A stretch of 64,000 nt of DNA from Yinghuangia seranimata (GTDB lineage: Bacteria > Actinomycetota > Actinomycetes > Streptomycetales > Streptomycetaceae): the NCBI RefSeq assembly GCF_029953285.1, contig NZ_JASAOI010000007.1, forward strand, positions 124,001 to 188,000, written 5' to 3'. Every line of letters begins with the position of its first letter. Within the stretch, counting starts at the first letter, position 1. Below, piece after piece: positions 39,295 through 58,319 of this stretch. The translations under genes and the position numbers were made by a program. Below the pieces are notes generated by a model. That model had not been told where the DNA came from and made no database searches. It was given only the letters and a program-made list of their open reading frames with translations.

Positions 39295-40014
39295 ATGACG
39301 CGATATATCGACGAGGATCTGCACGGTGCGGAGTTCCGTGAGTGCGATCTGACCGGGGCACGCCTGATCGGCGTCGTCATGCAGGATGCCGTGATCGACG
39401 GGCTCGTCACCAACCTCGTAGTGAACGGTGTCGAGGTCACCGAGTACGTCGAGGCAGAGCTCGACCGGCGTCATCCGGTGCGGGTGCTAATCCGCTCCGA
39501 GGACCCGGACGATCTGCGCGAGGCATCGCGTCAGCTCCATGCCGGCTGGGCCGCCACGATCGAGCGAATCCGCCGTACGCCCGGCATCGAGCGCCGCAGC
39601 ATGAACGACGAGTGGTCGGCGTTGCAGACGATGCGCCACCTGGTCTTCGTCCACGACTCGTGGTTCCGCCGCTGCTGCCTGGGCTCGACGGAGCTGTTCA
39701 CACCGATGGGCATCGGGACGACCGTCGAGCCCTACCGTGGAGCGCACGGAATTGACCTCTCGCTCGATCCGGCCCTCGACGAGATCGTGAGCGTGCGTGA
39801 CGCACAGGCCGCCGAGCTTGAGGCCTGGCTCGACGAGGTCACCGCCGTGCAGCTCGCAGCGCGAGCGCCGGTGCCCGACGACGATGTCTGGCCGCCGTAC
39901 GCCCGGGGCCGCTTGGTGCGGCAGTGCCTCGGCACCGTGCTCAACGAGACCTTCGAGCACCACGGCTTCTGCGTTCGCGACCTCGACCTGATCGAGGCAC
40001 AGGACGCCGAGTAG
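39295..40014 (+). CDS. DinB-like protein with N-terminal pentapeptide motif
   Basis: The 239-residue protein begins MTRYIDEDLHGAEFRECDLT, a pentapeptide-repeat-like lead (A-x-F/L units). A DinB_2-type helical bundle follows, with metal-ligand histidines in LQTMRHLVFVHDSWFRR and NETFEHHGFCVRDLD. An ATG at 39286 is also in frame. DinB-fold proteins often bind a metal and a thiol cofactor. It follows the IS630 remnant and has somewhat lower GC than the core of the window. Confidence 0.8.
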   Translation: MTRYIDEDLHGAEFRECDLTGARLIGVVMQDAVIDGLVTNLVVNGVEVTEYVEAELDRRHPVRVLIRSEDPDDLREASRQLHAGWAATIERIRRTPGIERRSMNDEWSALQTMRHLVFVHDSWFRRCCLGSTELFTPMGIGTTVEPYRGAHGIDLSLDPALDEIVSVRDAQAAELEAWLDEVTAVQLAARAPVPDDDVWPPYARGRLVRQCLGTVLNETFEHHGFCVRDLDLIEAQDAE

Positions 40015-40153
40015 GGCCGACTACGCACAACGTGCGCCGGACCGAACAACTGTCAGCCCTCGACGACACCACACCTCAAAGCTCAGCAACAAGGCAAATG
40101 CGCTGTTCGCCGTAATCGGCGCGGCTCGCGGTGCGACACTCCCCGGATACGCC

Positions 40154-41299
40154 TTGGCAGCGAAACAGGGGGCATCCGATGCCGACGCCGATTCCGGCGA
40201 CCGACGCGCAGCTGCGGTCCAGCGGGCGGCGGACCGATGGGCCGACGACACGCGGCGGGTCTTCGAGACCACATGGCGCGCACCCGTGACGGCCGACCGG
40301 CTGCTGGCCGCTGTGCCGTCCGGGCAACGCCGGGATTTGTGGGGCGAGTTGCTGAGGACGTTCGTGGAGGCACGTGTCCACGACCTGGCGGCCGAGGCGG
40401 CGAAGCGCCGCGTCCCCGCCGCCGACCAGGCGTACACCGCGCTGCGGGACGCCACCCCGCGTCCGACCGACCAGGACCTCGCCCAGGGCCCGGCCACCGA
40501 CCGGATGCTCGCCGACACCGTCGCGGCGACGGCCGCGGGCCGTGAACTGTCCGCGTTCGCCGCCGACCTCGCCAAGCACATCGAGGACCTGGCCGGCCGC
40601 GCGATGCCTCTCGAGAGGCTTCGCGTCCACAAGGACTCCGAACTCTCCACCGCTTCAAGCCGGTTGGCGGTCCGCGTCGCGCAAGCCGACCGGATCGCGG
40701 CGCGCATCGACGCCTACCCCGACCGAGCGGCCCTGCTCGCCGCGATCGACCCTGCCTTCCGGGAAACCCTCACCTCCGGCCACGCCCTGCTCGCGGACAC
40801 CGGACGGGCCTGCGCCGACGCCGACCGCGCCCTGCGCGCCGGGCTGGACGGCACCCTGGCCGACCAGGAGGCGGCGATCACGGCCGCCTTCGACGCCGTC
40901 ACGCCGACCGTGACGGCGGTCGCCGACGAACTGACGTTCCAGCTGACGGCCGTCGCGGAGGCCGCCATCGGGTACATCTGCGCGCCGCCCCCGCCGGACC
41001 CCGTTCCCCCGGAGTTCGCGAGGTTCGTGACCACCTACCGCGAGGGCCGGCAGGCGGTCCTCCTCGCGCCGACCGCGGCGGCCAAGATCGCGTCCTGGCG
41101 CCACTTCGACCCAGGGCACGGCGGAGAGCTGCCGCTCTCGGCGTTGGAGAACGCTTTCGGTACGGACATACCGGCTCAGCTGCTCGCCGACGCGCTCACG
41201 CACATCGCCCGCCAAGTCCCGAACGCACCCTTGGATTACGAGGAAGCGGTGAGCTCCATCCGCAAGTGGGCGGAGGAACACAACGCGCCGCGACGGTAG
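40154..41299 (+). CDS. Hypothetical all-helical protein
   Basis: The 381-residue frame starts at a TTG (40154); other starts cannot be excluded because no clear ribosome binding site is present. The protein is almost wholly alpha-helical and Ala/Asp/Arg-rich (RRVFETTWRAPVTADRLL, LLRTFVEARVHDLAAEAAKRR, TAAFDAVTPTVTAVADELTF). It has a proline-rich break around ICAPPPPDPVPPEF and a C-terminal helical part (ALTHIARQVPNAPLDYEEAV). No family or motif is recognised. It lies alone between the DinB gene and a convergent VOC gene. Confidence 0.65.
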   Translation: MAAKQGASDADADSGDRRAAAVQRAADRWADDTRRVFETTWRAPVTADRLLAAVPSGQRRDLWGELLRTFVEARVHDLAAEAAKRRVPAADQAYTALRDATPRPTDQDLAQGPATDRMLADTVAATAAGRELSAFAADLAKHIEDLAGRAMPLERLRVHKDSELSTASSRLAVRVAQADRIAARIDAYPDRAALLAAIDPAFRETLTSGHALLADTGRACADADRALRAGLDGTLADQEAAITAAFDAVTPTVTAVADELTFQLTAVAEAAIGYICAPPPPDPVPPEFARFVTTYREGRQAVLLAPTAAAKIASWRHFDPGHGGELPLSALENAFGTDIPAQLLADALTHIARQVPNAPLDYEEAVSSIRKWAEEHNAPRR

Positions 41300-41391
41300 C
41301 AGCCCGCAAGGCCGCCCGCCGCGGCCCGGAGCGCCAACCCGACGCCTACAGCCGCCAGAACAGCACGCCACACCGGATCCGCGCCCGAGCG

Positions 41392-41775
41392 TCAGGAGTC
41401 CGCGGCCGCCCGGTCGGACTCGCTGCGCAGCACGCAGAATTCGTTGCCCTCCGGATCCGCAAGGACCGCCCAACCGCTCCCGTCGGGATTGCGGTGGTCA
41501 GCGACAAACGTCGCGCCAAGACCCAACAGCCGCTCCACCTCCTCGTCCCGCGAGGTCTCGGGACGCAGGCACAGGTGCACCCGGTTCTTGACCGTCTTCG
41601 GCTCCGGCACCTGATTGAAGTACAGCACCGGGCCCTCGGTCAGCATCACCTGGGTCTCGCGGGACCCCGGCCTGTCCTCCGGATGCAGCGGGCGACCGGT
41701 CACGCCGCTCCAGAACCGGGCCAGCTCATAGGCGTCCGCACAGTCGATCGCCACGTTCTGCAATACCGAGACCAT
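41392..41775 (-). CDS. VOC family (glyoxalase/bleomycin-resistance fold) protein
   Basis: The 127-residue protein has two beta-alpha-beta-beta-beta units typical of the vicinal-oxygen-chelate superfamily: VLQNVAIDCADAYELARFWS in the first and HLCLRPETSRDEEVERLLGL with VLADPEGNEFCVLRS in the second. The terminal PEGNEFC glutamate is the usual metal position. Members are glyoxalases, dioxygenases or antibiotic-binding proteins; nothing indicates the ligand here. Confidence 0.88.
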   Translation of the reverse strand: MVSVLQNVAIDCADAYELARFWSGVTGRPLHPEDRPGSRETQVMLTEGPVLYFNQVPEPKTVKNRVHLCLRPETSRDEEVERLLGLGATFVADHRNPDGSGWAVLADPEGNEFCVLRSESDRAAADS

Positions 41776-41815
41776 GCGCGCGAGCTTTCTCGATCTTCAC
41801 CGGAATCGCCACCGG

Positions 41816-41837
41816 GCCGCACCCGCCCGGGTGCGGC
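41816..41837 (-). terminator. Stem-loop terminator after the secreted repeat protein gene
   Basis: A perfect 9-bp stem (GCCGCACCC and GGGTGCGGC) closes a four-base loop. It lies about 100 bp beyond the stop of the minus-strand gene at 41936 and before the VOC start. Confidence 0.6.
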
Positions 41838-41935
41838 GCATCGCCGCGCTGTGCGGCGGCGGGGTCGCCTGCGGGCGCCCCGCTCCGCGGGTGCCTGCGG
41901 CGTGGTCCGGAACGTGAACGCGATCGCGTCGCAGG

Positions 41936-42433
41936 TCAGTGCGTAACCACCTCACAGTCCGCGGCCACCACGTCGAACGTGTCGGCCTGGACCGTGTCGA
42001 AGCCGGTACCGCAGGTGATCTGGTCGCGCACACCGTTCTTGGCGTGGACGCTGTCGTTGCCCGAGCCCGCGCTCACGTTGGACGGGGTGCCCGGCACCGC
42101 GAGCGTGATGGTGTCGTTCTGGTCCCCGCTGGTGGCGTTGATGCCGGTCAGCGTCGCGGTGCTGCCGCAGTCGGCCGAGGTCGCCGACAGCCTGAGGCAG
42201 CCCGGCCCCGCGAACACACCGGCGGCGTCGCTCACGATGACCCGGCCGTTCGACGTCGAGAACGCGACCGTGTTCGCCGTCGCGTTCGCCGCGGAATAGG
42301 CCACCGTCGGGCCGTTCCGTATGAGCGTGGAAGGCGAGGCGCCCGCCACGCCCGACAACACCATCGGCACCGCGAGACCGATTGCCGCGGCCGGTGCGAA
42401 CAGCGCCAGCCGGCGTCTCTTGGTGGTGTTCAT
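41936..42433 (-). CDS. Secreted protein with RTX-like (hemolysin-type calcium-binding) repeats
   Basis: The ATG at 42433 follows GAGGAGC. A twin-basic signal peptide (TTKRRRLALFAPAAAIGLAV) is cut near VAGA-SPS. The mature ~130 residues contain TSGDQNDTITLAVPG, SAGSGNDSVHAKNG and CGTGFDTVQADTFDVVAADC, which resemble G-x-N/D-D repeat units of hemolysin-type calcium-binding folds. Four cysteines could form two disulphides. It is a small secreted, perhaps calcium-binding protein; no catalytic part is present. Confidence 0.75.
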   Translation of the reverse strand: MNTTKRRRLALFAPAAAIGLAVPMVLSGVAGASPSTLIRNGPTVAYSAANATANTVAFSTSNGRVIVSDAAGVFAGPGCLRLSATSADCGSTATLTGINATSGDQNDTITLAVPGTPSNVSAGSGNDSVHAKNGVRDQITCGTGFDTVQADTFDVVAADCEVVTH

Positions 42434-42769
42434 GCCAATGCTCCTCACGTGCTTCGACAGTCCGGAGACAGCGCACAGAGGCAACGCACGGGGACAAGGG
42501 GCCCATAGGGCGGCGGCACCGACGCACATCGCCGGGCTGCCCGTCCTGCCGGTCGAGATCCTCTCCGACGACCACGGGCCGCCGAAGATCTTCCCCCTGT
42601 TCCCACGGTTCCCGCATGCGGACCGCTTGTCAACGCGTACCCAGCCTGCTCCCCCCACGGTTGCACGACGCATCTCAACGTTTGGCCGGGGCGCGACGAT
42701 CGAGCAGGCGCTTGATCGGCTGTGGAACGATCACAACTGTCCTGCCAGATCCTTCGGAGGAGTCACCAC
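42434..42769. other. 336-bp divergent intergenic region
   Basis: No gene is visible. It must hold the promoters of the secreted protein (minus) and of the hydrolase/Cas3 pair (plus). The part from about 42640 to 42760 is clearly lower in GC than the surrounding genes. A good ribosome binding site (GGAGGAG) ends it. Confidence 0.5.
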
Positions 42770-43516
42770 GTGACCGGCGACCAGTCGATCCGCAGCGCCG
42801 CGGCGTTCGAGGGCTTCACAGTGGAGCACGACGGTGAACGCCTGAGTTGCGCGCGGGCCATCCCGTATGCCGAACACCCGGCGCAGGTCAGGCAATCGGT
42901 CGTTCTGCTGCACGGTGCCGGCACCGGCAGCAAGCAGCGCCTCGTCGGGCTGATGAGCGACAGCGCCGCACGCGGCTACCAGGCTCACTCCTTCGACTTT
43001 TCGGGCCACGGCGACAGTTCCGGACGCCTGGGCGAACTGAGCCTGGAACGCCGGTTCGTGCAGGCCCGCGCGGTCATCGACTCATGCGTCCCCGCCGACC
43101 ACCGGCTCGTTCTCGTCGGGTTCAGCATGAGTGGTCACACGGTGGCGGATCTGGCGACGCACTACGGCGGCCGGGTGCAGGCCATCGGCCTGTGCGCGCC
43201 TGCCGTCTACGCCGCCGAGGCGTGGAGCGTTCCGTTCGCTGCGGGCTTCACCGAGATCATCCGCACGCCCGACAGTTGGCGCCGATCCCCGGCACTCGAA
43301 GTGTTCCGTGCCCTAACTGCGCGCGCCGTACTGGCGACCCCGGCCGTCGACGAGGTCATCCCCGAGGCCGTCACCGAAGCCGTTGCGGAGGCACTCAGCG
43401 CGTCGCCCTCGCTATTCACCCGTCTCGTCTACCCGCGGGCGGACCACAAGCTCGGTCTGTGGTTCCAGGAGAACGCCGCAGAGCGCAAGGAGTTCCTCGA
43501 CGCCGTCCTGGCCTGA
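42770..43516 (+). CDS. Alpha/beta hydrolase
   Basis: The GTG at 42770 lies nine bases after GGAGGAG and gives 248 residues. The oxyanion loop is VVLLHGAGTGSKQR, the nucleophile elbow LVGFSMSGHTVADL, with Ser instead of Gly two residues after the likely nucleophile, and the catalytic histidine lies in RADHKLGLWFQ. DFSGHGDSSGRLGE is typical of small esterase/acyl-hydrolases. The gene ends 56 bp before the Cas3-like gene on the same strand, so the two may form an operon. No link between hydrolase and nuclease functions is known to me. Confidence 0.85.
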   Translation: MTGDQSIRSAAAFEGFTVEHDGERLSCARAIPYAEHPAQVRQSVVLLHGAGTGSKQRLVGLMSDSAARGYQAHSFDFSGHGDSSGRLGELSLERRFVQARAVIDSCVPADHRLVLVGFSMSGHTVADLATHYGGRVQAIGLCAPAVYAAEAWSVPFAAGFTEIIRTPDSWRRSPALEVFRALTARAVLATPAVDEVIPEAVTEAVAEALSASPSLFTRLVYPRADHKLGLWFQENAAERKEFLDAVLA

Positions 43517-43572
43517 CCGTTTTCTCCGTCGGACATCTAGAGTCGGGAGTCCGGCGGGCGAGAGGGCAGTGA

Positions 43573-45807
43573 ATGACGAGCGGATTCGGGGAGTTCTTCC
43601 ACACAGCGACCGGCTATCGCCCGTATGCCTACCAGGCGGGGCTCGCAGAGAGTGGGCTGCCGCGATTCGTGCGGGTTCCGTCCGGCGGCGGGAAGACCGC
43701 GGCCGCCGTGCTGGCGTGGCTGTACCGCCGACTGGTGTCCGCGCCCGAGGAGACGCCGCGGCGATTGGCGTACGTGCTGCCGCAGGGCGGCCTCGCGGAC
43801 CAGACCCACACGCGGATCGCCGAATGGTTGCGCCGGCTCGGGTACGCGGACGAGGTGGATCTGCACCTGCTCGCCGGCCCTGAGTCGCAGAACGGCACAT
43901 GGCGGCGGTATCCCGAGCGCACCGCGATTCTGGTGGGCACGCACGACGTTTTGCTGAGCCGGGCGTTGATGCGTGGGTTCGCCGATTCACGGACGATGGC
44001 GCCGGTGTCGTTCGGGCTGCTCAACACCGACACCCATTGGGTGTTCGACGAAATGCACTTGCTGGGACCTGGTTTGCCGACGAGCACGCAGCTGCAGTCA
44101 CTACGCGAATCGCTCGGCACGACGGCGCCGACCCACAGCACGTGGATGTCGTCGACGCGGGACGGGGACCCGGAGATTGGGGCGGGCGAAGCCCCGACAG
44201 GCGGCCACCTCAGCGCGATTCGACGCATCAGGCGCCTCGCCCCGGACCCGACACGGTACGTACAGGACCTCGTCGACGCGCTGGGCTCCGCACACGTCCC
44301 CGGCACGCAGACCGTCGCCGTACTCGGCTCCGCACAGCGCGCTCGCGAGGTCTACGGCGCGCTACGCAACGCGCATCCGGACCGGGAGATCGTGCTGGCG
44401 CATCCGTACGCGCGTTCCGTCGACCGCCGTGATCGCGCGGCGGCGCTGGAAGACACCGGCCGGGACCGGATCCTGGTCACGACGCGGGCGCTGGACGCCG
44501 GATGCGACGTGTCCAGCCGTACGCTCCTGACCGAACTCGCCCCGTGGAGCGCGCTCGTACAACGCGCCGGCCGCTGCAATCGTCACGGCGAACACCCCGA
44601 CGGCGGCGACCTGTTGTGGTGCGTCCCGCCGGAGGGCCCCGGGGCCGACGTGGGCGTCGCGACCTGGCTGAACGCCCACGAAGGCGAGGCAGTCACGACC
44701 GCCGACCTCTTTCACGCCCGTGTCGACCCAGACACACCACCTTCCCAAACCCTCCACGAGCACGACGTCTTGGCGATGTTCGACAACGCCCGAGGCGCGG
44801 CTCCGACCGACGCGAGTCCGTGGATCCGCGCCGACGAGGATCGAACGGTCTTCGTTGCGTGGCGGACCTGGGAGTCGGGAGAACCGGCGGAAGACGATCC
44901 TGAACCCGCCCGAACCGAGCAGTGCGAGGCGCCGCTCGCCGACGTCCGCGAGCTGTTGGACGGCGGCGTATGGCTGCGCGACCCCGCCGACGGCCGGTGG
45001 CGGCACGCTGTGGCCGACGACCTCCGCTCCGGATCGCTCCTGGTCGTCGACTCGGCGCGCGGCGGCTACCTCCCCGAGCTCGGCTGGGCGCCGGAGAGCG
45101 ACGCCCCGGTGCCGTCGCTGTTCACGGGACGCAGGCCTCCCACGACCGGGTGTGTCGCGTGGGTGAGCCTCGACCAGCACCTGCTGGAGACCGAGGAGGA
45201 GGCCCGCGCGGTTATGGCCGGCCTCCCCGGGCTGACCGAGGCGCAGCGGGAAGCCGTCGCCCACGCCGCCAGATTCCACGACCTGGGCAAGTGCCACGAC
45301 GTCTTCCAGGCCATGCTGCGCGACGGCGGCGGCGATCCGCCCGACGACCTGCTCGCCAAGTCCAAAGCCCCGTGGAACAACGGCGTTTCGGCACGTCCGT
45401 ACTTCCGGCACGAGCTGGTCAGCGCGCTCATCCTGCTGAACGGCGAGTACTGGCACACCCCCAGCGTCGACCCGAGGTTGGTCGCCTACCTGGTCGCGGC
45501 GCATCACGGCCAGGTACGCGTGTCGGTGCGCCCCGAGACCGACGAGGACGAACTGACCCTGCTCGGCGTCCGGAACGGCGACCACACGCCCCCGGTCACC
45601 ATCACCACGGGCGACCACTTCCCCGCGCAGTCACTCGACACCGAGGCCTTCCGCCAAGGCGGTTCGTGGACGCCGCAGACCTTGGCCCTGCGAGACCGCG
45701 ACGACCTGGGCCCGTTCCGCCTCGCCTACCTCGAGTCCTTGGTCCGCGTCGCCGACTGGCGCTCCAGCGCCCGCCACGACGGCCCCACGGTGGGACTCGT
45801 GCCCTGA
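43573..45807 (+). CDS. cas3: Orphan Cas3-like helicase-HD nuclease (type I-G order)
   Basis: The 744-residue protein has an SF2 helicase first: a Q residue in YAYQAG, Walker A PSGGGKT (36-42), motif II DEMH (159-162), motif III WMSST, motif V TTRALDAGCDVS and motif VI QRAGRCNRHGE (330-340). A C-terminal HD nuclease follows: FHDLGK (H569-D570), RHELVSAL, AAHHGQ (about 643-648) and the final aspartate in RVADWRSS. Helicase-then-HD is the order of type I-G (formerly I-U) Cas3, which unwinds and degrades DNA recruited by Cascade. All metal ligands are kept, so it could be active. No other cas gene or array is present. Confidence 0.9.
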   Translation: MTSGFGEFFHTATGYRPYAYQAGLAESGLPRFVRVPSGGGKTAAAVLAWLYRRLVSAPEETPRRLAYVLPQGGLADQTHTRIAEWLRRLGYADEVDLHLLAGPESQNGTWRRYPERTAILVGTHDVLLSRALMRGFADSRTMAPVSFGLLNTDTHWVFDEMHLLGPGLPTSTQLQSLRESLGTTAPTHSTWMSSTRDGDPEIGAGEAPTGGHLSAIRRIRRLAPDPTRYVQDLVDALGSAHVPGTQTVAVLGSAQRAREVYGALRNAHPDREIVLAHPYARSVDRRDRAAALEDTGRDRILVTTRALDAGCDVSSRTLLTELAPWSALVQRAGRCNRHGEHPDGGDLLWCVPPEGPGADVGVATWLNAHEGEAVTTADLFHARVDPDTPPSQTLHEHDVLAMFDNARGAAPTDASPWIRADEDRTVFVAWRTWESGEPAEDDPEPARTEQCEAPLADVRELLDGGVWLRDPADGRWRHAVADDLRSGSLLVVDSARGGYLPELGWAPESDAPVPSLFTGRRPPTTGCVAWVSLDQHLLETEEEARAVMAGLPGLTEAQREAVAHAARFHDLGKCHDVFQAMLRDGGGDPPDDLLAKSKAPWNNGVSARPYFRHELVSALILLNGEYWHTPSVDPRLVAYLVAAHHGQVRVSVRPETDEDELTLLGVRNGDHTPPVTITTGDHFPAQSLDTEAFRQGGSWTPQTLALRDRDDLGPFRLAYLESLVRVADWRSSARHDGPTVGLVP

Positions 45808-45836
45808 GCCACGGGTCCGGACGCCAGGCCGCCCGA

Positions 45837-46091
45837 TCAGAGGTTCGCGATCAGCCCCCAGGTGAAGAGGACGGCTCCGACGTAGAAGAGGACCGACACC
45901 ACCCACATGGTGCCCATCGCCTCGTCTGCGTTCTCTTGCGACATGCGGCCGATCCTGACCTTGAGCGCGAAGTGCGCCTTCGCCAACCGCGGCATGCCGA
46001 TCGCCACGATCCAGCAGACGATGGCGACGAACAACCAGGTGCCGACGCCCCCGTCACTCCCCTTAGCCGCCGCCTCCGCCAAGCCCTGCAT
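45837..46091 (-). CDS. Small two-helix membrane protein
   Basis: The ATG at 46091 follows GGGAGG by eight bases. The 84-residue protein has two transmembrane helices (about 18-35, TWLFVAIVCWIVAIGMP, and about 60-80, WVVSVLFYVGAVLFTWGLI) joined by a charged loop. Function is unknown. It ends 30 bp from the Cas3 stop in the convergent orientation; the next minus-strand gene upstream also encodes a membrane-anchored protein. Confidence 0.7.
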   Translation of the reverse strand: MQGLAEAAAKGSDGGVGTWLFVAIVCWIVAIGMPRLAKAHFALKVRIGRMSQENADEAMGTMWVVSVLFYVGAVLFTWGLIANL

Positions 46092-46158
46092 ATGCTGTGC
46101 CTCCCCCGCGTCACGGCACCTTCACCATGGCATGCGATTCACCCTCGCGTTGCGAAGT

Positions 46159-46704
46159 TCAGCGTTCTCGGTCGCGGTGGATCTCCGCGCGGACCGCATC
46201 CCAAAGCACATCCGCCGCCCGGGTGGCCTGAGCGGCCACTGCGCCCAGGTCGTTCTGCGGGTCTTTCGCTCCGTGCGCGTCTGTCGCATCGTGAGGGGTT
46301 TCGCGCGTGACACCCAACATTTGTGCCTGCCACTTCAGTTCAAGTGCGGTCTCCTTCTCGAGCCACTGCCGGAAGGCCGTCCTGACGGCTTTGGACGCGT
46401 AGGCGTGCCGCCGAGCCTCGAAGAGATAGCGGTTCGGGGCCTCGTACTGTCCGGGCCAGTCCTGCCAATCGCTGTCGACGGCGTCTCCCCGGCTTCTTTC
46501 CATCGCGTTGGTGCGCTCCTCCACGGAGTGGTGAACGTAGGCGAGGATCTCCTCGTACACGGCGCATTCACGCTCCCAAAGGCGCTGGTCGTGAGCGAGA
46601 TCTCGTTGGCGCCGGAGCGAATACCCCGCGAGCCATGCGGAGGTGCCGATGCTGATCGCAGCAATGGTGCCGGTGATGACCGCGGCGATGACAGGTGCGC
46701 TCAT
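46159..46704 (-). CDS. Membrane-anchored coiled-coil hypothetical protein
   Basis: The 181-residue protein has one N-terminal transmembrane helix (about 4-28, PVIAAVITGTIAAISIGTSA) and then a long charged helical domain (QRLWERECAVYEEILAYVHH, FRQWLEKETALELKWQAQML). This is the shape of many streptomycete membrane-tethered proteins of unknown role. It is followed after 67 bp by the two-helix membrane protein gene on the same strand. No catalytic motif is seen. Confidence 0.7.
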   Translation of the reverse strand: MSAPVIAAVITGTIAAISIGTSAWLAGYSLRRQRDLAHDQRLWERECAVYEEILAYVHHSVEERTNAMERSRGDAVDSDWQDWPGQYEAPNRYLFEARRHAYASKAVRTAFRQWLEKETALELKWQAQMLGVTRETPHDATDAHGAKDPQNDLGAVAAQATRAADVLWDAVRAEIHRDRER

Positions 46705-46937
46705 ATTCAGGACCTTTCACGGCACCGATCTGTCCATGACCCGGATCCTGCCGCAAGGGCCGTGGCGCGCCGCGCCGTCATGACCCGTTCAGCCCAACCT
46801 TGTGCCGAGAAACGCTCGATCGGTTCGCTGGATACGACGCGGCCGAGTCCGGCCGGACGACGACGCACAGCTGAACCGACGAGCGACAGCCGTCCCGTCG
46901 GCGATACGGGGTACGGAACGGCCGTCGCGTGTGGTTC

Positions 46938-48413
46938 TCAGGGGCAACCCTGGTCCGCCAGCACGTAGTAGCCCGGCGCGGTCTGCTTGAGGGTGTGGAC
47001 CGTGAAGACGTTCCACAGCCCCATGGCCTGGTTCGAGCCGTTGGCGTAGACGTAGCCGCCGCTCTGGTGGGCGCGGCCAGCGGTGGTGTGGGCGTAGTTG
47101 CTGGCCGTGAAGCAACTCGGGGTGGCGCTGCCGGTTGTGGTGGCGCTGACCGGGGTGGAGGTGGCCCCTGACGTCCCCGATGTGTCCACGGCGGCAACGG
47201 TATAGGAATACGCCGTCCCCGCCGCGAGTCCGCTGTCCGTGTACGAAGTCCCACTAGCGGAACCGACCTTGGCGCCGTTCCGATAGACCGCGTACGACGC
47301 GGCCCCGGCGACCGGGTCCCACCTCAGGCTCGCTGTCGTGTCGGTCGTGCCCGTCACCGTGAGCCCCGTGGGCGCGGGCAACGACGGCGTGCCGCCGCCC
47401 GTCCCGTCCAGGCCCCAGAACTGCGCCGTGTAGTAGCTGGAGCAGACCGTGTCGAGAAAGAACGCCCCCGTTGCGCCGCACTGGTCGACGCCGCTCCCGG
47501 GGTCGACCGCTAGGCCGTGGCCCATGCCGGAGATCGTGTAGAGCGCCACAGCGGGGCGCCCGCCGGTGTCGTTGTACGTGCTGACCGTCGTCCCGCCCGG
47601 CAGGGTCCGGGTGTTGGACGCCGTCTGGCCGACGCCCCACACGTTCGTCCACTGGTCGCGCGACTCGGTGGCGTTGACCGGGTAGACGGTGTTGTCGGAC
47701 GTCCCGTGCCAGATCGCCACGCGCGGCCACGAGGTCGTCCCGGCCGGGGCGGCGGCGCGGACGAGATCGCCCCATTGGGCGGGCGTCTTGCTGACCGGCC
47801 CGTACATGCAACTGTAGGCGGCGGTCTGGTTGTTGGCGCAGTACGCGGGGACGCCCGAGTCAATCGACCCGCCCGCGAACACGTCCGGGTAAGCCGCGAG
47901 CACGTCCGCGGTCATCGCGCCACCCGCCGACAAGCCGGTGATGAACACTCGGCTGACGTCGGTGCCGTAGCGCGCGACGGCGGTGTCGACCATCTGCTTG
48001 ATGGACAGCGCCTCGCCCTGCCCGCGTTTCGTATGTCCGGGCTCGTACCAACGGAAGCACGACTGCGACTGGTTACTCGGGTCAGTCTGCGGAAAGACGA
48101 GCGAAAAGCCGTACAGGTCCGCGTACTTGGTCCAGCCGGAGTTGGCGTAGTAGTCAGCAGCGGTCTGCCCGCAGCCGTGCAGGGCGACGACGAGCGGGGC
48201 GCGGGCTGGGAGGTTCGCCGGGGCGTACGTGTACATCGCCAAATTGCCCGGGTTGGACCCGAACCCGGTGACCTGCGTGAGCCCCGAGGCGGAAGCCTCC
48301 GGCGCCCCAGCGACCAGCAACGCACCCACGACGGCGAACGCCCCGGCCACGGCGGCCACGCGTCGACGAACGGCTTTCAGACGAGCAGCTCTTGCGATGG
48401 GAATCGACGGCAT
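46938..48413 (-). CDS. Secreted polyhydroxybutyrate depolymerase-like esterase with FnIII domain
   Basis: The ATG at 48413 follows AGGAGC and gives 491 residues. A basic signal peptide ends near residue 43 (EASA-SG). An Esterase_PHB domain follows (about 50-350) with oxyanion ALHGCGQT, lipase box GLSAGG (S162) and the catalytic histidine near ISGMGHGLAVD. Then come a fibronectin type III module (about 362-445; APTGLTVTGTTDTTASLRW) and a C-terminal Cys-containing substrate-binding domain (SNYAHTTAGRAHQSGGYVY). This order matches extracellular PHB depolymerases. The product 3-hydroxybutyrate could feed the ketone-body genes at 53.7-58.2 kb. Confidence 0.9.
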   Translation of the reverse strand: MPSIPIARAARLKAVRRRVAAVAGAFAVVGALLVAGAPEASASGLTQVTGFGSNPGNLAMYTYAPANLPARAPLVVALHGCGQTAADYYANSGWTKYADLYGFSLVFPQTDPSNQSQSCFRWYEPGHTKRGQGEALSIKQMVDTAVARYGTDVSRVFITGLSAGGAMTADVLAAYPDVFAGGSIDSGVPAYCANNQTAAYSCMYGPVSKTPAQWGDLVRAAAPAGTTSWPRVAIWHGTSDNTVYPVNATESRDQWTNVWGVGQTASNTRTLPGGTTVSTYNDTGGRPAVALYTISGMGHGLAVDPGSGVDQCGATGAFFLDTVCSSYYTAQFWGLDGTGGGTPSLPAPTGLTVTGTTDTTASLRWDPVAGAASYAVYRNGAKVGSASGTSYTDSGLAAGTAYSYTVAAVDTSGTSGATSTPVSATTTGSATPSCFTASNYAHTTAGRAHQSGGYVYANGSNQAMGLWNVFTVHTLKQTAPGYYVLADQGCP

Positions 48414-48489
48414 GCGGCAGCTCCTGGTCGAGGACGCGATGGACCGGCCCGGCACGCCTGGCCCCAGGCGTACCGGCCCGTGCCTCGAA

Positions 48490-48681
48490 TCATCGGACCG
48501 AGCCGAAGTCGCTGAAATGGCCGGGAAGTCCACTGTTCGCGCGCCCGTCATAGGCCACGAGGCCATGCCGCACCCAACCGACGGGCACGTCCACCAGCAG
48601 ACGAGGCGGAACACCCCCGTCCGGCACCTCGACGACGACGCCGTCGCCGTAGTCCCAGTACCGGAACCGGATCAGGAGCAT
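48490..48681 (-). CDS. Small hypothetical protein, second of a coupled pair
   Basis: The 63-residue product starts MLLIRFRYWDYGDGVVVEVP and has a short beta-rich core with VGWVRHGLVAYDGR. Its ATG overlaps the last codons of the preceding small gene (ATG...TGA within ten bases) and uses GGAG inside that gene. No family is recognised. Confidence 0.55.
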   Translation of the reverse strand: MLLIRFRYWDYGDGVVVEVPDGGVPPRLLVDVPVGWVRHGLVAYDGRANSGLPGHFSDFGSVR

Positions 48682-48833
48682 GGCGGCTCCCCCTCGACAC
48701 CGGACGGTAAGAACGACGCGGCATCGCCACCGACCGGCGTCCAGCTCACCCAGGCCGGCCCAAGGTTCGTCGTCACGGTGTACCGCTCGTGCGTACGCCC
48801 GTCCGGCAGGACGTCGTACACGCGAACAGTCAT
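48672..48833 (-). CDS. Small hypothetical protein, first of a coupled pair
   Basis: From the ATG at 48833 this encodes 53 residues (MTVRVYDVLPDGRTHERYTV, ending EGEPPCS). The frame is open further to an ATG at 48905, but the added residues look like read-through of a regulatory region. It has a small beta-rich pattern and couples to the next gene by overlap. It is divergent from the XRE regulator. Confidence 0.5.
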   Translation of the reverse strand: MTVRVYDVLPDGRTHERYTVTTNLGPAWVSWTPVGGDAASFLPSGVEGEPPCS

Positions 48834-48960
48834 GCGCGGGCCGCGCACGCGCGGCTCCTGGAGTTCAGCCCCGGCGCATTCGGAGGCATTGACGCGATCA
48901 GCCATGCAACTACCGTGTCAGCCATCGGTCATCAGCAATATGCGCGAGCACGCCACAACC

Positions 48961-48979
48961 ATTGGCGCTATGAGCCAAT
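48961..48979. promoter_or_regulatory. Palindromic operator candidate ATTGGC-N7-GCCAAT at the XRE regulator start
   Basis: A perfect six-base inverted repeat (48961-48966 and 48974-48979) overlaps the first possible ATG (48970) of the regulator. A second palindrome, TGGCGCCA (48981-48988), follows immediately. Such placement is typical of an autoregulatory site. Confidence 0.55.
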
Positions 48980-49944
48980 ATGGCGCCATGGCTACGTCAA
49001 AGACCCGGACGGAACGCCGCGCCATGGAACGCACCGCACAGGAGATCCGCCTGCGCGGCCTGCGGAACGCCTCGACCGTCGCCGACGTCGTCGACGGGAT
49101 CCTGGCCGCGCTGCCGGACGCGCATCCCTTGGAGGCGCACCGTTGGGCGCAGGGGTGGGACCGGCGAGAGCTCTCCATACGAATCGACATGGTGTACGAG
49201 CGCGCCGGGCTCGCCCCGCCCGGTGTCGCCGATGCCGAGATTTGCAGGTGGGAGCACGGAGACCGGCGGCCGAACGACGAACGTATCGACGTCCTGTGCC
49301 AGATCTATGGGACCCGGCCGGATCGGCTCGGCTTCGGACACGATTACAGTGGCGCCGTGCTCGGACATCTCGAACAGGCAGGTCTCATCGACCTCTACCC
49401 GCTCACCACGAGCGACTCGAAGGCCGACCTCGTCGGCCGATTGAGCTCGGCTGCGCAGCACATCAACATGTTCGGCCTCACCCGCAACTACTACGCGGGC
49501 GAGGCCATGCTGCCGCTCTTCGAGCACAAAGCCGCCAAGGGCGTGCCCGTACGGCTGTACATCATGGACCCGCACTGCGACTCGCGCCGGGACCGCTATC
49601 GCCTCGAGCCGGCCGAGGCGGCGATGGAGGATCCCGACCGCTACACGCGCGAGATCCTGCGGCCGCTCGCGGAAGCGGCGTCGGCCAGCGAGAACTTCGA
49701 GATCTACCTGTACAACTTCCCCTGCTCGTTCGCGATGGAGGAGGTCGACGACGCCATCCGCGTCATGCTGTACGGCCACGGCAAGCGCGGCACCGACGGC
49801 CCGATCCTGACCTTTCAGGCAGGGACCGAGTTCCACCGGTACTTCTCCGACCAGCTGCGATGGATCGAGCGACTGGCGGCGGCCGATCCGATCCCGGAAC
49901 CGTGGCGTTCCAAGGGCATCGCGGTGTGGCGGTACGAAGGCTGA
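48970..49944 (+). CDS. XRE-type helix-turn-helix regulator with C-terminal effector domain
   Basis: The frame gives 324 residues from ATG 48970 (or 318 from ATG 48988; neither has a ribosome binding site). An HTH region (about 45-120) contains RWAQGWDRRELSIRIDMVYE and EICRWEHGDRRPNDERIDVLCQIYGTRPDRLGF, as in actinobacterial XRE regulators. The C-terminal domain (about 140-320; GRLSSAAQHINMFGLTRNYY, GVPVRLYIMDPHCDSRRDRY, FHRYFSDQLRWIERL) resembles the signal domains of PLD-like or sensory regulators. It is followed after 32 bp by an acidic protein gene. Confidence 0.78.
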   Translation: MSQYGAMATSKTRTERRAMERTAQEIRLRGLRNASTVADVVDGILAALPDAHPLEAHRWAQGWDRRELSIRIDMVYERAGLAPPGVADAEICRWEHGDRRPNDERIDVLCQIYGTRPDRLGFGHDYSGAVLGHLEQAGLIDLYPLTTSDSKADLVGRLSSAAQHINMFGLTRNYYAGEAMLPLFEHKAAKGVPVRLYIMDPHCDSRRDRYRLEPAEAAMEDPDRYTREILRPLAEAASASENFEIYLYNFPCSFAMEEVDDAIRVMLYGHGKRGTDGPILTFQAGTEFHRYFSDQLRWIERLAAADPIPEPWRSKGIAVWRYEG

Positions 49945-49976
49945 ACCACAGCGCGACACAATCTAAAGTTCCGAGC

Positions 49977-50546
49977 ATGGTGCCTAAGAGTTTCTACGAC
50001 TTGAGGTTCGGCGTATCTCCCGGTGGCGCCAGGAAGGACGCGCACCACATCCGCGGCAGCCTTGACGAAGTCGTAGACGCTCTGGAGTCCGAGCTCGACG
50101 AGTCCGTCAACGTATGGATGCTCTTCGACTACGGCGCCGATCTGGCCTTGGACGTGTATCAGCGAGGCGAGCGAGTGCGTTCGATCGATCTTCACCCGTT
50201 CGTCGCGATCCGGGTCGACGGCTACCCGGAGATCACCTTCCTCGGCTCGGGCAAGCCGACCGGCTACGCCGTGGGCGCGGATGACGCAGCGAAGGTGAAG
50301 GCGGAGCTCGCCGACGGGCTCTTCGACGGCAGGTTCGACGGCAGGATCGACGCCACCGTGGACTGGGATCGTGTCCTCGTCCCGCCGCTTGTGGGTGAGA
50401 TCGCGGAGTACGGCGACTATGTCATGCTCGGCGACGGCCCCGTCGATGACCTCTCCGGCCTCGACGACCTCGACGAGGACGAGTTGGCGGACGAGCTGAT
50501 CGAACGGGACTACGTCGAGTACGGGGACCACGACTTCGAAGCGTGA
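49977..50546 (+). CDS. Acidic hypothetical protein downstream of the XRE regulator
   Basis: The 189-residue protein begins MVPKSFYDLRFGVSPGGARK and has an alpha/beta part (SVNVWMLFDYGADLALDVYQ, FVAIRVDGYPEITFLGSGKP). The tail is very acidic (DDLSGLDDLDEDELADELIE). No ribosome binding site is clear. No family is recognised. The composition and neighbourhood (next to an SMI1/KNR4 protein) are like those of small immunity or anti-restriction proteins, but that is only a suggestion. Confidence 0.7.
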   Translation: MVPKSFYDLRFGVSPGGARKDAHHIRGSLDEVVDALESELDESVNVWMLFDYGADLALDVYQRGERVRSIDLHPFVAIRVDGYPEITFLGSGKPTGYAVGADDAAKVKAELADGLFDGRFDGRIDATVDWDRVLVPPLVGEIAEYGDYVMLGDGPVDDLSGLDDLDEDELADELIERDYVEYGDHDFEA

Positions 50547-50652: not shown

Positions 50653-51801
50653 ATGCACCTCGACGACCTGCTGCGAAACGCCACCCCGGCGCCCGATCGC
50701 GAACCCGCTCTGCCCGTCCCCACGGACTGGCGCGCCGTCGAGCGGTGGCTGGGCACCCAGCTCCCCGTCGCCTATCGGCGTGTCGCGGAGGTGTGGGGGC
50801 CGGTGGAACTGGGTGGCGCCCTCGAAATCGCTGTTCCCTGCCACGGGGAGTACTTCGACTATGGCCAGTGGCTGCGCGAGTGCTCTTCGCCGGAGGCCGG
50901 GCTGCTCTTCTGGCCCGACGAGGGCGGACTACTGGCCTGGGGGCGGCTGCGCGACCACACCCTGTTCTGGGACACATCCGTCTCGGCCGACCCCGACGCG
51001 TGGACCGTCGTCTCCTGGATGCCATCGGACCGGTCCCAGCCGAACGCCGTCCACGACTTCGGCCTGACGACGGCCGAGTTCCTCGATGCCGTTACCAGTC
51101 CGGAGTACGGACACCAGAACAGCCCCCGCCCGGTGTCGGCGACCATCAGGCGTACCCGGTACCGCTCCGACGTGTCCGCATGGCCCGTCCCGGACCTGCC
51201 CGCCCGTGAGCGGCACGCGGACCGTCGTGCCGCGTTCCGCGAAGGGGCGGGGTGGGACACCCTGGTGCGCTTGGTGCCACCGCCGGAGCAGCCGCGGTTG
51301 GACGACGGCGTCACGTGGGACTCGGTCTTCACCCGCCTCGGCACCAGACTGCCGGCCGAGTACGTGACGCTGATCGAACGCTACGGACGCGGTCACTGGC
51401 GCGAGACGCTGAACTTCGTCGACCCGTTCCGCACTGACGCAGGCGGCTTGTTCTGGGAGATCCACCGGCTCACCGAACTGTGCGGGATCCTGCGCGAGGA
51501 CGACCCCGACGCCCAGCTCCCGTCGCTCTGGCCCGCACCCGGCGGCTTCCTGCCGTTCGCCGTGACCGTAGGCGTCGACACGGTCGGCTGGTGGACGGTC
51601 GGCAAGCCTGACGCATGGCCGCTCGGGGTGCTGAACCGGGAACTCGACCACGAATACCCGCCCCTGCATGCCACTCTCGTCGACACCCTCCTCGCCTGGT
51701 GCCGCGGCACCTACGACGACCAAGGCTTCTGGACGCTGCACGACGACGATCCGCCCCCGACCGAGGACGAACTCTTCCACGCCGCCGAGTTCACTCCCTA
51801 A
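50653..51801 (+). CDS. Tandem SMI1/KNR4 (SUKH-superfamily) protein
   Basis: The 382-residue protein has two similar alpha/beta domains. The first (about 22-150) reads DWRAVERWLGTQLPVAYRRV, then GGLLAWGRLRDHTLFWDT. The second (about 215-365) reads DSVFTRLGTRLPAEYVTLIE, then PFAVTVGVDTVGWWTV. The W-x-x-V/I-E-x-x-L-G-x-x-LP-x-Y/A pattern is that of SMI1/KNR4 proteins, which in bacteria often neutralise contact-dependent toxins. No toxin gene is adjacent, so this is an orphan immunity-type gene or a housekeeping member. Confidence 0.82.
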   Translation: MHLDDLLRNATPAPDREPALPVPTDWRAVERWLGTQLPVAYRRVAEVWGPVELGGALEIAVPCHGEYFDYGQWLRECSSPEAGLLFWPDEGGLLAWGRLRDHTLFWDTSVSADPDAWTVVSWMPSDRSQPNAVHDFGLTTAEFLDAVTSPEYGHQNSPRPVSATIRRTRYRSDVSAWPVPDLPARERHADRRAAFREGAGWDTLVRLVPPPEQPRLDDGVTWDSVFTRLGTRLPAEYVTLIERYGRGHWRETLNFVDPFRTDAGGLFWEIHRLTELCGILREDDPDAQLPSLWPAPGGFLPFAVTVGVDTVGWWTVGKPDAWPLGVLNRELDHEYPPLHATLVDTLLAWCRGTYDDQGFWTLHDDDPPPTEDELFHAAEFTP

Positions 51802-57418: not shown

Positions 57419-58213
57419 TCAGTGCGCCGTCCACCCGCCGTCCAGCGACAGCGAGGTGCCCGTGACGTAGCCCGCCTCCGCCCGGCACAGGTACAGCACC
57501 GCCGCCGCGACCTCCTCGGGCTCGATGAGCCGCTTGATCGCGGGGCGCTCCAGCATGATCTCCCGCACCACCTCGTCGCCGGAGATGCCGTGCGCGGCGG
57601 CCTGGGCGGCGATCTGGTTCTCGACGAGCGGGGTGCGGACGTAGCCGGGGCTCACGCAGTTGCTGGTGACGCCGTACGGCGCGCCTTCGAGCGCGGCGAC
57701 CTTGCTGAGCCCCTCCAGCGCGTGCTTGGCCGCGACGTACGCCGACTTGAACGCGCTCGCGCGCAGCCCGTGCACCGAGGAGATGTTGACGACGCGGCCC
57801 CAACGCTGCACGTACATGTGCGGCAGCACGCGGCGCACGATGCGGAACGGCGCCTCGACCATGACCTTCTGGATGAGCGTGAACCGCTCGGCGGGGAACT
57901 CGTGGATGGGCGCGACGTGTTGCAGCCCGGCGTTGTTGACGACGATGTCGACGCGCTCGGGCAGCGTCTCGACGGCGTCCGGGTCGGCGAGGTCGACGGC
58001 GTGCGCGGTGCCGCCGATCGCGTGGGCGACGGCCTTGGCCTCCTCGGCGGCGATGTCGACGACGTGGACGTGCGCGCCCGCCGCGGCGAGGGCGACGGCG
58101 CACGCCCGCCCGATCCCGCTCGCCGCCCCGGTCACCAGCGCGACGCGTCCGGTGAGGAACCGGTCGGTCGTGTGGGTGGGCGAACCGTCGTCTGTGATCG
58201 CGCTGGATTCCAT
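57419..58213 (-). CDS. bdhA: 3-hydroxybutyrate dehydrogenase (SDR family)
   Basis: The 264-residue short-chain dehydrogenase has the NAD-binding motif VTGAASGIGRACAVAL, NNAGLQHVAPIHEFP, and catalytic Ser/Tyr/Lys in NISSVHGLRASAFKS and AYVAAKHALEGL. The QHVAPIxEFP and HGLxASxFKSAYVAAKH segments are characteristic of 3-hydroxybutyrate dehydrogenase rather than generic SDRs. It oxidises 3-hydroxybutyrate to acetoacetate, the substrate of the nearby CoA-transferase. The ATG at 58213 was preferred over upstream in-frame codons. Confidence 0.92.
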   Translation of the reverse strand: MESSAITDDGSPTHTTDRFLTGRVALVTGAASGIGRACAVALAAAGAHVHVVDIAAEEAKAVAHAIGGTAHAVDLADPDAVETLPERVDIVVNNAGLQHVAPIHEFPAERFTLIQKVMVEAPFRIVRRVLPHMYVQRWGRVVNISSVHGLRASAFKSAYVAAKHALEGLSKVAALEGAPYGVTSNCVSPGYVRTPLVENQIAAQAAAHGISGDEVVREIMLERPAIKRLIEPEEVAAAVLYLCRAEAGYVTGTSLSLDGGWTAH

Positions 58214-58319
58214 GGCCACACCGTAGGAATCGCGCCGCGCCGGGCACACGGGGCGCGGCACCACAGTTGCGCGCCGGACGGTGGTCGGTGGAACCATGCC
58301 CGGACCCGCTCGCGAATCG

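Follow-up and report, generated by a model that had tools for sequence, protein, structure and literature searches.

How does a Cas3 nuclease stay harmless, and how is it aimed, without Cascade? The question is raised by a single gene in the 64-kb stretch of Yinghuangia seranimata DNA analysed in this study, which we refer to as the window. The encoded protein contains three Pfam domains, DEAD (residues 32-181), Cas3-like C-terminal helicase (246-339) and Cas3 HD (526-733). It was identified as the type I-G Cas3, Cas3g, by NCBIfam model TIGR02621 (600.9 bits against a cut-off of 400) and by the PADLOC Cas3g model PDLC01770, which matches residues 5-736 with 680.9 bits. A first-pass annotation of this DNA had the open reading frame, its coordinates, its length and the order of helicase and HD domains right, and it correctly placed the gene 56 bp behind an α/β hydrolase gene (hydrolase stop ending at 43516, Cas3g start at 43573). 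The features of the locus are given in Table 1.

Table 1. Features of the solo Cas3g locus, in window coordinates.
Feature	Position	Strand	Residues	Remarks
Short leader	43537..43572	+		Similar to the leader of locus L013; TAGAGT at 43538-43543
Solo Cas3g gene	43573..45807	+	744 aa	Helicase followed by HD nuclease
RecA1 helicase half	43573..44157	+	1-195	
Walker A	43684-43698	+		GGGKT, in RecA1
Motif II	44047-44058	+		DEMH, in RecA1
RecA2 helicase half	44158..44607	+	196-345	Motif V TTRALDAG, motif VI QRAGRCNR
Linker/accessory region	44608..45132	+	346-520	
HD nuclease domain	45133..45786	+	521-738	H536, H569-D570, H613, H644-H645, D728
Clade-specific C-terminal signature	45754..45786	+	728-738	DWRSSARHDGP

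By sequence, the solved relatives of the window protein are Cas3 helicases, including 7tr8, 7r2k and 8wtk. When the HD profile alone was compared with solved structures, only weak matches to Cas3-HD chains were obtained (E 0.04-0.05). Structures predicted from 8 sequences were of low confidence for both the whole protein and the HD domain (mean pLDDT 47.9 and 44.2, respectively). A search of Rfam produced no RNA match at 40000-50000 of the window.

Cas3g homologues were found in 5/391 genomes of the order, the window's included. Two of these genomes, G010 and G030, belong to the window's own family; their proteins are 44% identical to the window protein, and Csx17 and two further Cascade-type genes lie behind cas3. 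The proteins of G005 and G007 are 57-60% identical to it. The solo lineage is rare in the order, occurring in 3/391 genomes. A scan of GTDB species genomes identified at least 7 loci with relatives, in Kitasatospora phosalacinea, Streptomyces sp. PH10-H1, a MAG, Catenulispora pinisilvae, Virgisporangium ochraceum and two Catellatospora. The C. pinisilvae locus and G007 were counted once, and G005 is also a Catenulispora. With the window included the solo clade has at least 9 members, and the 8 relatives are 52-68% identical to the window protein. Cut-offs of the Cas3 models were also examined for six of the relatives. TIGR01596 (Cas3-HD) scored above cut-off in the window protein and in 6/6 relatives, and TIGR02621 did so in 5/6 relatives, the exception being the helicase-truncated Catenulispora protein L010 (320 bits). 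In a sample of 394 genomes of the class, 14 had a match above the Cas3g cut-off. Besides the window's, 5/5 short-form Cas3g genes in this sample (G010, G030, the second copy of G415, G417 and G568) directly precede Csx17.

In a maximum-likelihood tree of 20 proteins, from which L062 and L036 were left out, the 9 solo members form one clade (support 100/99) outside the Cascade-linked short Cas3g. Because the long-form outgroup is Cascade-linked, we infer that the solo form is derived from Cascade-linked Cas3g. The Streptomyces PH10-H1 protein branches with the MAG and the Micromonosporaceae (91/88, an unstarred node), apart from Kitasatospora, a placement suggestive of horizontal transfer of the solo gene. 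Phages were considered as a source and rejected. No relative was found in phages, and among viral contigs 25 stretches match two short patterns, a weak test, of which none encodes a relative. A plasmid search returned one near full-length match, the Cas3g of Embleya sp. NBC_00888 (40% identity). This solo protein falls inside the Cascade-linked side of the tree and is therefore regarded as a second, separate orphaning; it was excluded from every 9-member count. Its gene lies at L069:9980-12502 (NZ_CP108785.1, a 5.7-Mb linear 'plasmid' record) and has no cas neighbours. The protein keeps the HD ligand positions, and its motifs II and III read DEPY and TAM.

The window genome (9.8 Mb in 113 contigs, 98% complete) was then examined for CRISPR partners. 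Whole-genome searches produced a single Cas3_HD match and no match to Csx17, Cas7g (TIGR02570), Cas1 or Cas7e. The Csx17 profile TIGR04113 was silent in 8 class-sample genomes with long-form or partial Cas3g and thus overlooks some I-G large subunits; for this reason Cascade proteins were also used as queries. Fourteen Cascade-type proteins from five I-G loci, representing both Cas3g forms, were run with tblastn. As a control they found relatives in 6/6 other Cascade-linked loci; they found nothing in the 64-kb window and no Cascade relative at any of 10 solo loci (the 9 clade members plus Embleya). Repeat-spacer arrays were sought with a script requiring exact 20-mers in at least 3 copies at a spacing of 50-100. 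The script detected an array in 8/12 Cascade-linked stretches and missed it in 4/12; at this sensitivity, arrays were found neither in the whole window nor at any of the 10 solo loci. The same Csx17 profile search was positive in 2/2 Cascade-linked genomes and in 0/9 solo genomes. The description of the gene as a solitary Cas3 without Cascade, Cas1 or array was thus confirmed in the window, and genome-wide there was no match to Csx17, Cas7g, Cas1 or Cas7e. These results carry a warning for annotation. The solo proteins score as type I-G Cas3, yet no I-G system was found alongside them: Csx17, Cas7g, Cas5/6g, Cas1 and an array were all lacking in the searches made (Cas1 in the window genome, the array in the window).

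The first-pass annotation also held that all SF2 helicase motifs are intact, which overstates the case. The window helicase keeps Walker A GKT, motif II DE (thus K, T, D and E) and motif VI QRAGRCNR. Compared with 5 Cascade-linked Cas3g proteins, motif III reads SST in place of SAT and motif V reads TTRALDAG in place of TQVLEAG, so that the motif set differs from the complete one of Cascade-linked Cas3g. Differences of this kind occur throughout the clade. Motif III is SAT in 5/5 Cascade-linked proteins and in 0/9 solo proteins. At the fourth position of motif II, 5/5 Cascade-linked proteins have Q and the 9 solo proteins have H, P, D or R. The Walker A lysine is gone in 2/9 solo proteins, motif II DE is changed in 3/9, motif VI is missing in 2/9, and L010 is without most of RecA2. 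Judged by its motifs, the helicase of the solo clade is eroding while the HD site is kept. The helicase is predicted to be dead in both Catenulispora proteins. That of the window, with its ATPase residues kept, may still work.

The HD site presents the opposite picture in the same set of proteins, in which the nuclease site is kept and the motor lost. Seven positions with the pattern H, HD, H, HH, D are invariant in 9/9 solo and 5/5 Cascade-linked proteins, and we take these to be the ligands in the window protein from what is known of Cas3 HD structures. The intact HD-nuclease ligands reported for the window protein are therefore borne out across the clade. Directly after the last ligand, SARHDGP is present in 9/9 solo proteins and in 0/5 Cascade-linked proteins.

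Rates of change were compared between the domains. Mean pairwise identity within the solo clade is 72.8% for HD, 67.0% for RecA1 and 61.8% for RecA2, while in Cascade-linked Cas3g the values are 53.5%, 65.6% and 56.5%, respectively. Branch lengths were estimated on a fixed tree without Embleya and without L010, which was left out because most of its RecA2 is missing. For HD (without the tail) the ratio of solo to Cascade-linked tree length was 0.60, whereas RecA1 gave 1.10 and RecA2 gave 1.41; the HD ratio was below that of RecA1 and below that of RecA2 in 80/80 column bootstraps each. With Embleya counted as Cascade-linked the ratios became 0.52, 0.80 and 1.11, and HD was lower in 79 and 80 of 80 bootstraps. 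Values of dN/dS were obtained by the Nei-Gojobori method, which is rough on GC-rich DNA, and were <1 throughout. For HD they were 0.15-0.38 in six solo pairs and 0.21 in both Cascade-linked pairs. RecA1 gave 0.20-0.48 in solo pairs versus 0.09 and 0.16 in Cascade-linked pairs, and RecA2 gave 0.29-0.43 in five solo pairs versus 0.09 and 0.48. HD was below RecA1 in 3/6 solo pairs and below RecA2 in 5/5. Whole-gene dN/dS was 0.29-0.44 in solo pairs versus 0.18 and 0.31 in Cascade-linked pairs, which the solo values exceed in part; constraint therefore looks relaxed overall. By this measure constraint seems to have relaxed on the helicase and to have stayed about the same, without tightening, on HD.

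A Cas3 that appears to be free of CRISPR in several soil bacteria, keeps its cutting part and lets its motor decay suggests that a new job has been taken on. On the strength of these sequence comparisons, we somewhat favor the explanation that the clade is a CRISPR-freed lineage of type I-G Cas3g in Actinomycetes, made up of a single gene that encodes a self-contained HD nuclease. Retention of the HD site and of the new tail along with loss of the motor fits an HD nuclease that works without a guide and has a control of its own. Several points weigh against a solo HD nuclease: HD dN/dS is not tightened, constraint looks relaxed, the lineage is rare, the window helicase may still be active, and the loci have neither a conserved partner nor a defense-gene setting.

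Much of this evidence also bears on the possibility that the gene is a decaying relic, cut off from Cascade and spread by chance, in which HD is simply the last part to decay. The stepwise loss of helicase motifs, culminating in the near absence of RecA2 from L010, is what a relic would show. So are the patchy and rare distribution, a whole-gene dN/dS above that of the close Cascade-linked pair, and an HD dN/dS that is not below that of Cascade-linked pairs. The first-pass annotation had itself named a decayed copy without conserved neighbors as the contrary outcome. Half of this was borne out, since the helicase is decaying and its surroundings lack conservation; the HD site, however, is intact. 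All 9 frames are open across three named families and a MAG, and both the seven ligand positions and the clade's own tail are invariant. In addition, the amount of change in HD, measured against that in the helicase, is smaller than for Cascade-linked Cas3g in 80/80 bootstraps, and such selective protection of HD is not expected from neutral decay. We regard a relic as unlikely. A different role for the preserved domain is less probable again. HD domains comprise nucleases as well as nucleotide or phosphate hydrolases, such as dNTP-depleting HD enzymes, and the HD domain of the clade might have become a hydrolase of this kind and ceased to be a DNA nuclease. L010 does match HDIG weakly, below the cut-off of that model. 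However, the H, HD, H, HH, D pattern is identical in Cascade-linked Cas3g and the Cas3-HD model TIGR01596 scores above cut-off in the window protein and all six relatives examined, and we consider a change to hydrolase improbable.

The solo protein could instead serve in trans a Cascade encoded elsewhere, of type I-G or another type. A distant I-G Cascade, which had been proposed in the first-pass annotation, was not supported because Csx17 was found in 0/9 solo genomes and 6/9 have neither Cas7e nor a second Cas3 HD. The exceptions are G005, which has both, G396, which has Cas7e, and G394, which has the second HD; thus Cas7e occurs in 2/9 solo genomes and a second Cas3 HD in 2/9. Action in trans is favored by the presence of Cas7e in both Catenulispora genomes, of which G396 lacks a second match to Cas3 HD. 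Yet 7/9 genomes have no Cas7e match, the window genome has no Cas1 or Cas7g match, and it is in G005 and G396 that Walker A of the solo helicase is gone. Action in trans is accordingly rated very improbable. The Cas7e of G396 (Catenulispora pinisilvae) lies at C351:1845-2867, and its occurrence without a second Cas3_HD match could reflect either a derived I-E system lacking Cas3 or a gap in the draft assembly.

To return to the self-contained HD nuclease, its working part would be the metal-dependent HD domain, which would cut or nick single-stranded DNA without a crRNA guide. Walker mutants of a type I-G Cas3, in the presence of Cascade, continue to nick target DNA without shredding it (PMC9638904). 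The HD domain is therefore not idle when the motor is gone, and motor failure should turn a Cas3g into an enzyme that nicks or that cuts ssDNA. The helicase remnant would act in DNA binding, as a scaffold or as a brake, and not as a processive motor. The SARHDGP tail might share in the control formerly given by Cascade. Likely uses would be innate defense against phage or plasmid DNA or single-strand trimming in repair, two roles that the data do not separate. A more specific proposal can be made, which we offer as tentative and rather doubtful. In it a single gene encodes an HD nuclease that needs no guide, moves alone between genomes and serves innate immunity or DNA repair. The helicase is on its way from a motor to a sensing or autoinhibitory scaffold, and the new SARHDGP tail controls the active site. 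Steps of this transition would be visible within the clade, where the window and Streptomyces proteins still have the ATPase residues and the Catenulispora proteins are motor-dead.

Compared with known systems, the solo form is most like type I-G Cas3 (Cas3g, formerly type I-U; TIGR02621, PDLC01770) in the short form found beside Csx17 in actinomycetes. The two share domain order, all HD ligand positions and homology over the whole length, with 40-45% identity. The solo form differs in that no Csx17, Cas7g, Cas5/6g-type gene or array is adjacent, motifs II, III and V are altered or lost, identity is higher in HD than in the helicase, and the C-terminal tail is its own and invariant. Reuse of CRISPR parts has been described, including Cascade without Cas3 and transposon-borne systems (PMC8730458). 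One case in that paper is the derived I-E with a STAND NTPase in Streptomyces, a CRISPR-derived class 1 module without Cas3. It resembles the solo clade as a type I piece that persists in related bacteria without arrays or adaptation genes. The halves are reversed, since those modules are Cascade without Cas3 and the solo clade is Cas3 without Cascade. Lone genes annotated as 'orphan Cas3' are also mentioned for Mycobacterium in PMC10333696, whose authors dismiss theirs as a false positive. Unlike the genes in that account, the window protein is far above the Cas3g cut-off and has a complete HD site. The open-licence PMC literature yielded no account of a Cas3 that had itself left CRISPR and been maintained.

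Neighboring genes were called with a GC-frame script; on the C. pinisilvae contig, 0.6 kb of sequence precedes the gene. The first-pass annotation had raised the idea of a stand-alone DNA-degrading enzyme for defense or maintenance, perhaps working with the hydrolase. The stand-alone part agrees with a nine-member, Cascade-less Cas3g clade that keeps its HD site, and defense or DNA maintenance may be its use. The hydrolase pairing was refuted for the clade, as no called neighbor at 8/8 other loci matched the hydrolase (blastp 1e-8). DNA similarity between loci is mostly confined to the gene itself. For example, the two Catellatospora loci share 92% DNA identity over 2.2 kb and none over the other 20 kb. 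The only kept neighborhood seen between two of the nine loci is an ABC-transporter operon downstream of the solo Cas3g in L015 (8810-11786) and L019 (13729-16693). Gene order is identical, protein identity is 56% for the permease, 65% for the ATPase and 39% for the third gene, and DNA identity is 68% over 1.8 kb. Two window proteins of generic kind have weak matches at other loci. The ABC ATPase encoded at 30252-31052 matches L015 and L019 at 29-30%, and a dehydrogenase-like protein, encoded at 57419-58264, matches L069 at 32%. The remaining scattered neighbor pairs between loci exclude the window.

The leaders of the window, L013, L014 and L015 are similar and carry TAGAGT or TAGTGT roughly 30 bases ahead of the start; those of the other loci are not. 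No -35 element was found at the usual distance from this motif in these four leaders. The gene may have a promoter or operator of its own in the window leader.

A defense island was considered and taken as no signal. A PADLOC scan of 103 neighbor proteins from the 9 loci matched 15 families with 1-3 members each, including Csa3 and CARF. In the 9 of 15 families that were rescanned, the strongest matches (mad3, mad8 and AriA) are ABC-transporter ATPases, and two TIR-system matches fall on a single L018 protein. An empty-site comparison with two congeners gave matches scattered over contigs, from which no empty site emerged. The IS630 scar noted beside the gene in the first-pass annotation was not confirmed in the frames searched there, ten at 39992-42834, which are without a transposase Pfam match. 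A segment of about 1.1 kb at window 40097-41213 has an 80% identical copy in its own genome, at G000:C41:28494-29629, and overlaps ORFs without a Pfam match.

Some individual neighbors were also recorded, two of them genes of DNA metabolism. RNase H lies directly upstream of the solo Cas3g in Streptomyces PH10-H1 (L014:9166-9870, same strand) and a photolyase directly upstream in Kitasatospora (L013:8433-9833, opposite strand); neither is common to the other loci. The SMI1/KNR4 (SUKH-1) family is often tied to toxin immunity, and a member is encoded at window 50653-51801, about 5 kb downstream of Cas3g.
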